Below are positions 41,456-45,448 of a stretch of DNA of 64,000 bases, one piece after another. Made by a program: the position numbers and the translations under genes. The notes beneath the pieces are model-generated. The model searched no databases. It saw nothing but the letters and a program-made list of their open reading frames with translations, and had not been told where the DNA came from. Source of the DNA: Halapricum desulfuricans (GTDB lineage: Archaea; Halobacteriota; Halobacteria; Halobacteriales; Haloarculaceae); NCBI RefSeq assembly GCF_017094465.1, contig NZ_CP064791.1, positions 1,984,001 to 2,048,000 on the forward strand. The letters run 5' to 3'. Position 1 is the first letter of the stretch. Every line of letters begins with the position of its first letter.

Positions 41456-42124
41456 TTATCGCCCGGAGACGTGATACCGCAAGAGAGCGCCGTCGTCGAT
41501 CCGCTCGATATCGCGCAGCCGCAGTTGCGGGAATCGGTCAGTGAAGCCGTCGCCGTCCGAAAGCGTCGGGGCGTCGCGCCCGCCGATCATTATCGAACCG
41601 ACGAACACGGAGAGCTCGTCCACGAGGCCGGCCTCGAACAGCGAGAACACGAGTTCGCCACCGCCCTCGACCATCACCTGCTCGATGCCGTGGGTTTCCA
41701 GTCGGTCGAATGCCACCGACAGGTCCACACGGTCCTCACCGGCAGTGACGACGGTCGCACCTTTCGTTCGTGCCTCGGTGAGGGCCTGGTCGGTCGCGGT
41801 GTCACTGGCCAGCAAGATCGTCTCTGCGGCGTCGTCGTAGACGGTCGCGTCGGTGGGAGTGCGCAGCCGCGAGTCGGCGATCACCCGCGCCGGTTGGGGC
41901 GGGTCACCACGCTCGGTCCGGGCGTCGATCCGCTCGCGATCGTCGACGGTCAGCGACGGATCGTCGGCCAGGACGGTGCCGACACCGACCATCACCGCGT
42001 CGCTGTCGGCCCGGAGTGCGTCGACGCGGTCGAAGTCCTCGGCACCGCTGATCGCGACTTGCTCGCGGTGTCGTGTCGAGAGTTTCCCGTCGACGCTCAT
42101 CGCAGCGTTGACGATGACGTGCAT
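41456..42124 (-). CDS. 2,5-diamino-6-(ribosylamino)-4(3H)-pyrimidinone 5'-phosphate reductase (archaeal riboflavin pathway)
   Basis: 222 residues of the RibD C-terminal/DHFR-like fold. Typical blocks: MHVIVNAAMSVDGKLSTRHR, DAVMVGVGTVLADDPSLTVD, RVIADSRLRTPTDATVYDDA and QVMVEGGGELVFSLFEAGLV. The archaeal enzyme reduces the ribosyl side chain before deamination, with NADPH. Length matches the stand-alone archaeal enzyme without a deaminase domain. No other riboflavin genes are nearby. Confidence 0.9.
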   Translation of the reverse strand: MHVIVNAAMSVDGKLSTRHREQVAISGAEDFDRVDALRADSDAVMVGVGTVLADDPSLTVDDRERIDARTERGDPPQPARVIADSRLRTPTDATVYDDAAETILLASDTATDQALTEARTKGATVVTAGEDRVDLSVAFDRLETHGIEQVMVEGGGELVFSLFEAGLVDELSVFVGSIMIGGRDAPTLSDGDGFTDRFPQLRLRDIERIDDGALLRYHVSGR

Positions 42125-42311: not shown

Positions 42312-42572
42312 ATGCCAGCTCGACCAACGGCACGGACGACGGACGGCCGGGACGCCGACGGGACGATCCCCGCAAAGGAGTGGGTCGTGTTCACTCGTGA
42401 GACGCCGACGGATCCGGCGGTACATACCGGAACCGTCCGGGCGGACGACGAAATAGACGCTCGCGAGCGCGCGGCGTCGTTGTTCCCGGGCGTTGCCGCG
42501 CGGTGGCTCTGTCCGGCGGATGCGATCGATCGCGACAGCTCGACGCCGCTAGAAGCGGGTGAGCCCGCATGA
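42312..42572 (+). CDS. Small PaaB-like rSAM-partnered protein (Htur_1727-like family)
   Basis: 86 residues. The core AKEWVVFTRETPTDPAVHTG, then IDARERAASLFPGVAARWLC and PADAI, resembles the small haloarchaeal proteins described as radical-SAM partners (Htur_1727 family), which have a PaaB-like single-strand-helix layout. It overlaps the next gene, a SPASM-type protein without the radical SAM cysteines, by 4 nt. Its role is unknown; a carrier or substrate of a modification system is a family-level suggestion, not a demonstrated fact. Confidence 0.75.
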   Translation: MPARPTARTTDGRDADGTIPAKEWVVFTRETPTDPAVHTGTVRADDEIDARERAASLFPGVAARWLCPADAIDRDSSTPLEAGEPA

Positions 42573-43657
42573 TCCAGCTCGACACGCTCCTCTGTGGCTG
42601 TGAGCATCCGGCGTCTGCATCGCTCGGCGATCCCGACGTCGAATGGGTGCTCGAAGACGGAGAGCTACTCGGCGACCGGGATCCGCTCTCGCCGTCGGAG
42701 CGACTCGCCGTGGTCGATCAGCTCGCCGAATTCGGTATCGAGACCCTGCGGCTGTCCGGTACGGCCGGCATCGACGCCGACGCGATCGACGAGCTCGTCG
42801 GACGAGCCGCCGAGCAGGACGTGGAAACGACGCTTCGACTCAACGGTGAGCAACTCGACCGGGACCGTCTCGAGTCGCTTGCGGACGCCGGGCTCGATCG
42901 GATCAGCGTCGTCGTGAAAGGGCTGTCGACGCCCCGGCAGAAACACACCGCGTCCGACGCGACGGATACCGCACTGGAGACGCTCCGGGCGGCCGAGGGT
43001 ATCGATCTGGCGACCGAGTTGCGCTTCCCGCTGCAGGCCGAGAGCGCGGTCGACATGGAGGAGATATACGACCTCGCTGGACTGCTATCGGCCGATCGGT
43101 TCCGGCTCGCGCACGTACCGGACGACGACCTCGACGACGAGCGCCGCCGCCGCGCGGTTCGCCGGCTCGCGGATCTGACCCGGGACGCCCACGAGCGGGG
43201 CAATCACCTGGAGACGGTTCTGAGCGGCGGGATCGACGCCGGATACGTGACCGAATACACCCGCGACCGTCTCGACGGGGAGTGTGCGACCAACGTTCGC
43301 GAGTCGCTCCGGGAACGGCTCGGGACCGCCCCGTCACCGCCGGTCGCGAAGATCGGACCGGCCGGGTCGGTGTACCCGGGCCCGTTCTGGGACCGGTACG
43401 CGCTCGGGTCGGTACGCGACCGGCCGTTCGGCGCGATCTGGACCGACGAATCCAACCCGCTGCTGGAGCGGCTCCGCCACGAGGAAGCCGCGCTGCCCGA
43501 CCGCTGTCGCCACTGTGAGTTCGGCGACGTCTGCAGTGGCGGTTCGCGCGGGCGTGCGCTGGTCGCTCACGACGATCCGTTCGAGCCGGATCCAGTCTGT
43601 TACGTGGATAAAGAGAGAGCAGCGAGCGGTTCTACAGTCGAGTCGACGGCGGACTGA
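42569..43657 (+). CDS. Pseudo-radical-SAM/SPASM-domain protein
   Basis: 362 residues with the barrel-like pattern of radical SAM proteins: FGIETLRLSGTAGIDADAID, then DVETTLRLNGEQLDRDRLES and DAGLDRISVVVKGLST. The expected C-x3-C-x2-C near the N-terminus is missing; only LLCGCEHP is present there. The C-terminal SPASM-like part is retained: GPAGSVYPGPFWDRYALGSV, CRHCEFGDVCSGGSRGRAL and PDPVCY. This matches the haloarchaeal pseudo-rSAM/SPASM class. It probably binds an Fe-S cluster through the C-terminal Cys but should not make a SAM radical. It is translationally coupled to the small partner gene. Confidence 0.8.
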   Translation: MIQLDTLLCGCEHPASASLGDPDVEWVLEDGELLGDRDPLSPSERLAVVDQLAEFGIETLRLSGTAGIDADAIDELVGRAAEQDVETTLRLNGEQLDRDRLESLADAGLDRISVVVKGLSTPRQKHTASDATDTALETLRAAEGIDLATELRFPLQAESAVDMEEIYDLAGLLSADRFRLAHVPDDDLDDERRRRAVRRLADLTRDAHERGNHLETVLSGGIDAGYVTEYTRDRLDGECATNVRESLRERLGTAPSPPVAKIGPAGSVYPGPFWDRYALGSVRDRPFGAIWTDESNPLLERLRHEEAALPDRCRHCEFGDVCSGGSRGRALVAHDDPFEPDPVCYVDKERAASGSTVESTAD

Positions 43658-43697: not shown

Positions 43698-44384
43698 GTG
43701 CTCTCGGTCGAGCTTCACGTTCACTCCTCGCTATCCTACGACGGGCGTGACTCCGTCGATGCGCTGTTGGAGAGAGCGCAGAACGCGTCCCTCGATGCAC
43801 TGGCAATCACTGATCACGACGAGTTCGACGCGAGCCGCGAGGCCGTCGAAAAAGCCCCCGCGTACGACCTCGTCGGTATCCCGGGGATGGAAGTGACCAG
43901 TGACGCCGGCCACGTGCTGGCGCTCGGTATCTCCGAGGCGATCCCGTCGGGGCTGCCGTTCGTCGAGACGCTCGACCGGATCCACGATCACGGCGGTATC
44001 GCCGTCGTCCCACACCCGTTCCAGGAGTCACGGAGCGGCGTAATGGCGAACATCTCCCGGGTGGAACTGGCCCGCGCGGACGCGATCGAGGTCTACAACT
44101 CCCGGTTGCTGACCGGCTACGCCAACAAGCAGGCCCGGGAGTTCGCAACCGAGCACGGGATCCCGATGACGGCCGGCAGCGACGCCCACATCGCGGAGAT
44201 GGTCGGCCGGGCGATCACGAACGTCGACGCCGACGAGCGATCGGTCGAGGCGATCCTCTCGGCGATCGCCGAGGGCCGAACGGAGATCGAGGGGAAACGA
44301 ACTCCCTGGCATATCAGTTTCAAACAGGCCGCCGGCGGGGCGAAACGACGCGTCCGATCACGCCTGGCGGACTTCTTCGAATGA
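43698..44384 (+). CDS. PHP-domain metal-dependent phosphoesterase
   Basis: 228 residues from a GTG at 43698 (translated MLSVELHVHSSLSYDGRDSV). All PHP motifs are present: HVHSSLSYDG, ITDHDEFDAS, GMEVTSDAGHVLALGISEAI, VVPHPFQESRSG and TAGSDAHIAEMVGRAITNVD. Enzymes of this type hydrolyse phosphoesters of nucleotides or sugar phosphates with a metal cluster; substrate unknown. The reading frame runs further upstream over the pseudo-rSAM gene, which is rejected as a start. It overlaps the next gene by 4 nt. Confidence 0.88.
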   Translation: MLSVELHVHSSLSYDGRDSVDALLERAQNASLDALAITDHDEFDASREAVEKAPAYDLVGIPGMEVTSDAGHVLALGISEAIPSGLPFVETLDRIHDHGGIAVVPHPFQESRSGVMANISRVELARADAIEVYNSRLLTGYANKQAREFATEHGIPMTAGSDAHIAEMVGRAITNVDADERSVEAILSAIAEGRTEIEGKRTPWHISFKQAAGGAKRRVRSRLADFFE

Positions 44385-45448
44385 CGCTGCACGGTGCTTC
44401 CCCCGCAGTCGTCCGGGCGGCGATCCAGCGCGGCGATCCGCTCCCCGGTGCCCGTGGGTTCGCCGGCGAGGTCGACGGGATGCTCGTCCGGGACGTGCTC
44501 GGCCGGTATCCACTCTTTGTCGACGGCGAGTCCTGGGCGTTCGATCCGTCCGAACTCGCTGACCCGGAGCCGTTTCCGGCCGGCCACGTCCGAACGGCCC
44601 AGGGCCTCGAACGGTGGGGCGAGCTCCCCGATCCGTCAGTTGCCGAGCCGAGCGAGGGCGTCGCGGCCGTTCGCTCGGCGCTCGAGCGCGCCTTCTCGAC
44701 GATCGATACCGATGGGCTCGCAATTGCTTTCTCCGGTGGCGTTGATTCGGCATTGCTTGCGGCTGCGCTTGAGGCCCCGCTGTACGTCGCCGGGTTTCCG
44801 GACAGCCACGACGTCGAGGCGGCCAAACGCGGCGCCGCGCTGCTCGATCGGGAACTCACGGTCGTCGAGTTGACCCACGAGGACCTCGAAGATGCCGTGC
44901 CCGAACTCGTGCGTGCGACCGGGCGGACGAACGCGATGGATATCCAGATCGCGCTGCCGCTGTATCTGGTCGCCGAGCGGGTCGCAGCCGACGGATTCGA
45001 TCGACTGGCACTCGGACAGGGGGCCGACGAGCTGTTCGGCGGCTACGCGAAGGTGGCGAAAGCGCCCGAGGACCCACGGCTAGACAGCGATACCGTCCGC
45101 GGGGCGACCCACGAGGTGATCGAGACACTCCCCGACCAGCTCGAACGGGACGTGCTGGCCGTCCGAGCGGCCGGTGTCGAACCGGTCGCGCCGCTGTTGC
45201 ACGACGCCGTCGTCGAGGCCGCGCTGGGGCTGCCGGGCGAATTACTCGTCGAGGGGGAGACCCGGAAAGTCGCGCTCCGGGAGGCGGCCTGGCGGTGGCT
45301 GCCCGAGGAGCTGGCGACGAAGGACAAAAAGGCCGTCCAGTACGGCAGTCTCGTCGCTCGCGAACTCGACCGGCTGGCCCGCCAGGCCGGGTTCAAGCGC
45401 CGAATGGACGACCACGTCACCCAGTACGTCGAGTCGCTCAGTACGTGA
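44381..45448 (+). CDS. Asparagine-synthase-type (PP-loop) amidotransferase domain protein without glutaminase domain
   Basis: 355 residues. The ATP-pyrophosphatase motif LAIAFSGGVDSALLAAALEA and the block LALGQGADELFGGYAKVAKA define the asparagine synthase C-terminal domain. The N-terminal ~110 residues have a degenerate layout (GFAGEVDGMLVRDVLGRYPL) and no N-terminal catalytic Cys, so glutamine hydrolysis is not expected. It may use ammonia or act as another adenylating amide-forming enzyme. It overlaps the PHP gene by 4 nt. Confidence 0.85.
   Translation: MTLHGASPAVVRAAIQRGDPLPGARGFAGEVDGMLVRDVLGRYPLFVDGESWAFDPSELADPEPFPAGHVRTAQGLERWGELPDPSVAEPSEGVAAVRSALERAFSTIDTDGLAIAFSGGVDSALLAAALEAPLYVAGFPDSHDVEAAKRGAALLDRELTVVELTHEDLEDAVPELVRATGRTNAMDIQIALPLYLVAERVAADGFDRLALGQGADELFGGYAKVAKAPEDPRLDSDTVRGATHEVIETLPDQLERDVLAVRAAGVEPVAPLLHDAVVEAALGLPGELLVEGETRKVALREAAWRWLPEELATKDKKAVQYGSLVARELDRLARQAGFKRRMDDHVTQYVESLST

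Follow-up and report, generated by a model that had tools for sequence, protein, structure and literature searches.

The closest described relatives of the large protein analysed here are the heme-synthesis enzymes AhbC (12,18-didecarboxysiroheme deacetylase) and AhbD, together with NirJ and NirJ1. The haloarchaeal ahb-nirJ1 and ahb-nirJ2 genes were tabulated by Storbeck et al. 2010 (PMC3004389), and these were later renamed AhbD and AhbC, respectively, in a study where AhbC activity was demonstrated for Mbar_A1793 (PMC3942049). The table of Storbeck et al. lists Huta_0031 and Huta_0734 for Halorhabdus utahensis with no entry for nirD or nirH, and a footnote to the same table marks the organism as having heme proteins. 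Whether H. utahensis performs its own heme synthesis was posed as an open question in that work (PMC3004389). In AhbD, the pattern CX2CX5CX20-38C is described as binding the AuxII [4Fe-4S] cluster (PMC10452713). For the small protein the closest described relative is PaaB, the bridging subunit of phenylacetyl-CoA epoxidase, where a PaaB dimer is reported to join two PaaAC units (PMC4498308).

Both families to which the pair is related are already named in NCBIfam, namely TIGR04347 ('pseudo-SAM/SPASM protein') and TIGR04031 ('Htur_1727 family rSAM-partnered candidate RiPP'), so the pair does not represent a system of a new type. We found no mention of either family name and no paper on radical SAM pseudoenzymes in the open-licence literature, and such pseudoenzymes are hardly described. 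What is new is that the TIGR04347 family is mostly intact and is probably AhbC, while in one of its clades it has turned into a conserved protein without catalytic motifs through stages that can still be recognised. Intact, half-degenerate and fully degenerate stages coexist with the same partner and therefore, the change of function is directly testable.

The gene pair and its two proteins

The window, a stretch of 64,000 nucleotides (G000:C1:1984001-2048000) from a haloarchaeal genome of 2.88 Mb, contains the two genes and the features listed in Table 1. The overlap of four nucleotides between them, which the first-pass annotation had pointed out, is present and was also observed in 38 of the 43 homologous pairs measured. 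A divergent archaeal riboflavin-pathway reductase gene (RibD-like, 41456-42124) lies upstream of the pair, and a PHP-domain gene (43698-44384) followed by an asparagine-synthase-like gene (44381-45448) lies downstream. The latter gene encodes a protein of 355 residues in which only the synthase domain was matched, with no match to a glutaminase domain, and it is conserved beside the CehA/McbA-type PHP gene. Within the window's genus, the pair is conserved in four of six genomes (G000, G109, G146 and G149). It was not found in G147 and G148, the latter being only 78% complete. Its conservation and the recurring overlap show that the pairing did not arise by chance. Genes for an S-adenosylmethionine hydrolase and a CofH radical SAM protein replace the PHP and asparagine-synthase genes downstream of the pair in G109 (L035:4215-6422) and G149 (L073:7847-10033).

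Table 1. Coordinates of the gene pair and of its features, numbered from the first nucleotide of the window
Feature	Position	Strand	Basis
Small PaaB-like partner, diverged TIGR04031 / Htur_1727 family, 86 aa	42312..42572	+	TIGR04031 51.8 bits; PaaB 3egr profile match; PaaB fold matches
Degenerate radical-SAM/SPASM protein, diverged TIGR04347, AhbC/NirJ-like, 362 aa	42569..43657	+	TIGR04347 260.1 bits; model pLDDT 84.7; PqqE fold match
4-nt overlap, stop codon of the 86-aa gene / start codon of the 362-aa gene	42569..42572	+	Sequence
Possible new metal site, C9-x-C11-x-H13 (N-terminal), with C239 at 43283-43285	42593..42607	+	Conservation in the window's genus
Residues 23-41, stretch in place of the CX3CX2C loop of intact relatives	42635..42691	+	Alignment A1
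Residues 64-67, GTAG (GGEP in intact relatives)	42758..42769	+	Alignment A1 and motif table
Predicted AuxII-type cluster site, C313-x2-C316-x5-C322-x21-C344	43505..43600	+	Four-Cys pattern in 67/67 homologues; AhbD AuxII pattern

TIGR04347 is the best NCBIfam match of the 362-residue protein, whose score misses the curated cut-off of 525; the match covers model positions 67-388 only, with 311 residues recognisable. The next-best families are NirJ (151 bits), AhbC (135.6 bits) and NirJ1 (127.3 bits). Pfam recognises both a Radical_SAM domain (37.1 bits, cut-off 29.5) and a SPASM domain (23.1 bits, cut-off 21.5). The SPASM-bearing GeoRSP protein TIGR04304 is also matched (36.3 bits), but only at residues 261-345, and the GeoRSP system includes a radical SAM protein whereas none is conserved beside the window pair. 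A partial radical SAM barrel was found in the AlphaFold2 model of the protein (45 sequences, mean pLDDT 84.7), where residues 15-19 have a pLDDT under 50. In a fold search this model matched PqqE 6c8v (Z 21.6, rmsd 3.9, 280 aligned), ChlB 9gm3 (Z 21.1, rmsd 3.4, 296 aligned) and SuiB 5v1s (Z 20.6, rmsd 3.7, 302 aligned).

No CX3CX2C motif, which provides the ligands of the SAM-bound [4Fe-4S] cluster, was found in the 362-residue protein. The GGE-type SAM motif is also absent from it, GTAG being found at the residues that correspond to GGEP, which we take to be the SAM-binding motif. The AuxII motif CX2CX5CX20-38C is present with spacings of 2, 5 and 21. A full SPASM domain with seven or eight cysteines for two clusters was not observed, as the protein has seven cysteines overall and four of them are in the C-terminal domain. 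The sequence, the Pfam matches and the fold search therefore agree with the initial description of a radical-SAM/SPASM fold without C-x3-C-x2-C, and the four C-terminal cysteines agree with the Cys-rich SPASM-like tail that it was said to keep. AhbD and the TIGR04053 proteins have the same AuxII pattern as the window protein, and TIGR04053 genes neighbour the intact relatives of the latter; AhbD, however, keeps CX3CX2C, and TIGR04053 forms a separate clade with a support of 100.

The sole NCBIfam match of the 86-residue protein is TIGR04031, again below the curated cut-off (57.2), and on its own the protein gives a weak match to Pfam PaaB (14.4 bits against a cut-off of 27). A profile of 43 TIGR04031 sequences matched the PaaB chains 3egr (E 1.1e-8) and 4iit (E 9.2e-8), and besides these two no other match was found at E up to 1. 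Likewise, the first three fold matches of the predicted partner structure (pLDDT 70.8) were PaaB chains from the same two entries. The partner family is thus PaaB-like in both fold and profile, as had been proposed from the sequence, although the single-sequence score is below the gathering cut-off and the partner of the window protein, in difference from that of PaaB, is not a di-iron oxygenase. The accompanying description of the small protein as 'carrier-like' was not supported, PaaB itself being described as a bridging subunit (PMC4498308).

Motif loss in the TIGR04347 family

The survey covered 146 genomes of the order, where the families were found over cut-off in 55 (TIGR04347), 64 (TIGR04031) and 82 (TIGR04053) genomes. 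TIGR04031 was observed upstream of TIGR04347 on the same strand and within 1 kb at 52 of the 55 places in this order survey. In the family survey this arrangement recurs at 71 of 78 places, among them those of the four degenerate members from the window's genus. Motifs were tabulated for 67 distinct TIGR04347-like proteins from the loci fetched, with the 219-residue fragment L043 left out. Alignment A1 holds 43 of these 67 proteins (the window protein once, as L001) and two TIGR04053 proteins. Two TIGR04347 copies appear to be broken, one being the C-terminal fragment L043:5295-5951 (219 residues) and the other G188:C2:651533-652701, where the match is split over two overlapping frames.

The four C-terminal cysteines of the auxiliary cluster are present in all 67 homologues. 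Fifty-six of the proteins have these together with CX3CX2C and GGEP, seven lack CX3CX2C only, and four (those of the window, G109, G146 and G149) lack both CX3CX2C and GGEP. The seven proteins of the second group, all of which keep GGEP (7/7), come from one sister genus (g6) in the same taxonomic family. CX3CX2C therefore occurs in none of the four proteins of the window's genus (0/4), in none of the seven of the sister genus (0/7) and in all of the rest (56/56). Judged from these motifs, the TIGR04347 family is not inherently 'pseudo' and the NCBIfam label misdescribes most of the members checked, 56 of 67 being apparently intact. Outside the known motifs, an N-terminal cysteine at residue 9 (MISxSKLLC) was observed in 25 of the 28 intact proteins in A1.

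Of the seven sister-genus proteins, four (L061-L064, from G203-G206) still have the second cysteine of the former CX3CX2C motif, in a sequence of the NLECAYR or NLDCSYR type. These represent an intermediate stage, this cysteine also being gone from L065-L067. Read from the alignment, the loss of motifs is stepwise and confined to one clade, with CX3CX2C lost as the first stage and GGEP lost in addition in the window's genus. In a tree of 53 rows from which the motif columns were excluded, the eleven degenerate proteins group together as a single clade (bootstrap 96, SH-aLRT 90). A long branch leads to the window's genus (2.5 changes per column in the quick tree), and therefore long-branch effects are possible. 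The sister-genus clade mates of the window protein pass the TIGR04347 cut-off.

The window, G146 (L072) and all seven sister-genus loci have PHP and asparagine-synthase-like genes downstream of the pair. These two genes also adjoin the intact enzyme of G225 (L076), and the locus of G003 with an intact enzyme (L042) shares the PHP gene. The shared neighbours and the clade therefore indicate one and the same gene at a common locus and not a chance relative. In gene order, 4-nt overlap, fold and auxiliary cysteines, the window pair is like the TIGR04347 and TIGR04031 families, but it scores below both cut-offs and its large protein is without CX3CX2C and GGEP, the first of which is kept by 56 of the 67 TIGR04347 members. 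The pair had been annotated as an unexplained system, but it is not an orphan: it evolved at this locus from a radical SAM enzyme that was still intact and had the same kind of partner.

Ancestry and possible roles of the pair

The models of NirJ1 (456 bits) and AhbC (436.3 bits, TIGR04546), both with a cut-off of 650, align with an intact family member over its full length. This full-length likeness suggests that the ancestor of the degenerate clade was probably a haloarchaeal AhbC-type heme enzyme. Since the AhbC cut-off is missed even by the intact member, the ancestral reaction is one that we infer. NirJ and AhbC are also the next-best families of the window protein, which differs from them in having no catalytic cluster motif and in reaching only 135.6 of the 650 bits for AhbC. 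In 32 of 55 genomes, an intact TIGR04347 gene is located within 1.5 kb of a TIGR04053 gene, the two being on opposite strands in every case, and the co-occurrence of the two families has an odds ratio of 37. For the TIGR04053 proteins of the window's genome, the curated family that ranks next is heme b synthase AhbD (345 and 304 bits, cut-off 500). This genome shows no further close relative of AhbC, its best other TIGR04347 match being a TIGR04053 gene (189 bits).

On the sister-genus contig G075:C1, a TIGR04053 gene is found at 31.6 kb and a TIGR04347 gene at 722.7 kb, which fits the locus numbers Huta_0031 and Huta_0734. From this we infer that the sister genus g6 is Halorhabdus and that Huta_0734, listed as ahb-nirJ2, is a protein without CX3CX2C. 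If this matching of loci is right, the ahb-nirJ2 of H. utahensis has no catalytic cluster motif, and this bears on the heme question of Storbeck et al. 2010.

The explanation that we favour, with slightly less than even confidence, is that the pair is what selection has preserved of an AhbC-type haloarchaeal radical SAM enzyme and the PaaB-like protein that goes with it, the enzyme now being a non-catalytic Fe-S subunit. The protein has lost its catalytic Fe-S site but is maintained, along with its partner, under strong selection and therefore, it probably does something other than radical chemistry. The large protein would no longer be able to cleave SAM and would most likely carry one [4Fe-4S] cluster at the AuxII site in its C-terminal domain. 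The PaaB-like protein would also most likely hold it as a dimer of heterodimers, in the way that PaaB bridges PaaAC. In this state, it would function without catalysis in redox or tetrapyrrole handling, as a remnant of its part in heme synthesis, and might, as an example, hold iron-coproporphyrin or exchange electrons with a heme enzyme. Along with the siroheme branch, the ancestral removal of acetate groups from 12,18-didecarboxysiroheme would have been abandoned. NirK is associated with the intact relatives, but none is present in G000 and G109 and yet the pair is kept, and the favoured explanation does not account for the pair there. It is also conceivable, though doubtful, that AhbC became a conserved non-catalytic Fe-S/tetrapyrrole subunit stepwise and in place in both Halorhabdus and the window's genus, with heme being supplied by an unrecognised route that involves the pair. 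Heme proteins occur in H. utahensis but AhbA/B do not, and under this reading these archaea would have to make or obtain heme by a route yet to be recognised.

The long branch, the loss of two motifs and the absence of the gene from G147 and G148 could be taken to mean that the degenerate gene is simply decaying. Its dN/dS within the genus (0.148-0.209, six pairs) is however like that of the neighbouring RibD-like reductase gene (0.152-0.241) and of the intact enzymes (0.091-0.270, ten pairs), which points to purifying selection and argues that it is not decaying; the partner gene has values of 0.158-0.454. In addition, internal stops are absent from all four genus members (4/4) and each of them has retained all seven cysteines (4/4), so we give decay almost no credence. 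The ratio of front-barrel to auxiliary-domain identity is 1.01 in 290 intact pairs but 0.82 and 0.78 for the two sets of degenerate proteins, and the constraint in the degenerate proteins has moved to the auxiliary-cluster domain. A second reading takes TIGR04031 for a RiPP precursor that the large protein modifies or once modified. This follows the NCBIfam title and would suit the strict upstream adjacency (52/55), but we consider it highly improbable. A RiPP precursor would have a variable core beside a conserved leader, or a modification that depends on a particular residue, whereas a conserved PaaB fold runs through the middle of the partner. The sole conserved cysteine of TIGR04031 is found in 40 of the 43 sequences in alignment A2 (which holds 43 of the 47 frames retained, another 17 having been dropped beforehand), with threonine in two and valine in one, and it is replaced by alanine in L010 although the enzyme there is intact. 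The partner moreover persists beside enzymes without a catalytic motif. With a conserved fold and a dispensable cysteine, the partner therefore does not look like a RiPP.

The first-pass annotation had stated that an alternative cluster motif in the N-terminal barrel would overturn its reading if it bound SAM. What was found is a candidate metal set, C9-x-C11-x-H13 plus C239, in the window's genus, which could be a new metal site and would make the protein a new metalloprotein and not a dead enzyme; to this extent it could serve as such an alternative motif. Each of the four residues is unchanged throughout the genus members (4/4), and C11, H13 and C239 occur in none of the 28 intact relatives of A1 (0/28), C9 being ancestral while C11 and H13 are new in the window's genus. 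These are however only four related sequences, the adjacent residues 15-19 are those of low confidence in the model, and the sister genus has lost C9 and has none of the four residues, which leaves a new metal site improbable. The same annotation had the pair probably working alongside a genuine radical SAM enzyme from another locus. In that case the degenerate protein would be a regulatory or electron-relay subunit in a mixed complex, most plausibly with TIGR04053 copy 2, and this we regard as unlikely. Copy 2 is present in all four genomes with the pair (4/4), the intact relatives are divergent beside TIGR04053 in 32 of 55, and electron transfer between molecules has been reported for PapB, where the auxiliary cluster can take part (PMC10470005). 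Copy 2 is, however, found in all six genomes of the genus including G147 and G148, which have no pair, while copy 1, present in both G147 and G148, is missing from G109 even though the pair is found there. In addition, no radical SAM gene is conserved beside the pair, as CofH is found near it in G109 and G149 and not in the window. Neither TIGR04053 copy nor any other true radical SAM enzyme tracks the pair across the six genomes and therefore, the proposed action in trans is unsupported.

Rejected associations and other loci

Four further associations were considered and rejected. The CGCGG peptide TIGR03995 appeared as a possible target of the pair when it was first counted in one of five degenerate genomes versus 46 of 52 genomes, but six of the eleven degenerate genomes have it. 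This link was rejected because of the latter count and because many genomes carry TIGR03995 next to TIGR04053. At L101:5554-5841 (G000:C1:575556-575798), the window's genome encodes a candidate RiPP of this CGCGG family (TIGR03995, 137.7 bits), far from any TIGR04053 gene. For denitrification regulation, Kosugi et al. name a palindrome, CGAA-N4-TTCG, of which we observed exact copies upstream in 0/4 loci of the window's genus, 0/7 of the sister genus and 4/36 others, against a background of 0.04 per 250 nt. HVO_2142/2143 was rejected as the Haloferax pair, HVO_2142 being described as a zinc-finger protein (PMC6562870). Linkage to NirK had an odds ratio of 4.7 among the 146 genomes, but both G000 and G109 are without NirK; the distances to NirK cover 16 places only.

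In the sister genus, a gene for a NirK-type nitrite reductase (L061:6360-7475, 381 bits, cut-off 296) is located directly upstream of the degenerate pair, and the same cluster was observed in L062-L064. Halocyanin, DUF7521 and HTH genes are also found near NirK and the degenerate pair in L061-L064. Furthermore, six TIGR04347-like proteins (L036-L041) with scores near 380 bits, the sole further strong relatives in the survey, form a subgroup in which CX3CX2C is intact. At the two of these loci that were scanned (L036 and L037), the subgroup gene lies beside genes for cytochrome d1-type beta-propellers, with one strong and two weak matches, and a molybdopterin oxidoreductase is also present in L037. 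This subgroup is possibly a haloarchaeal heme d1-like system.
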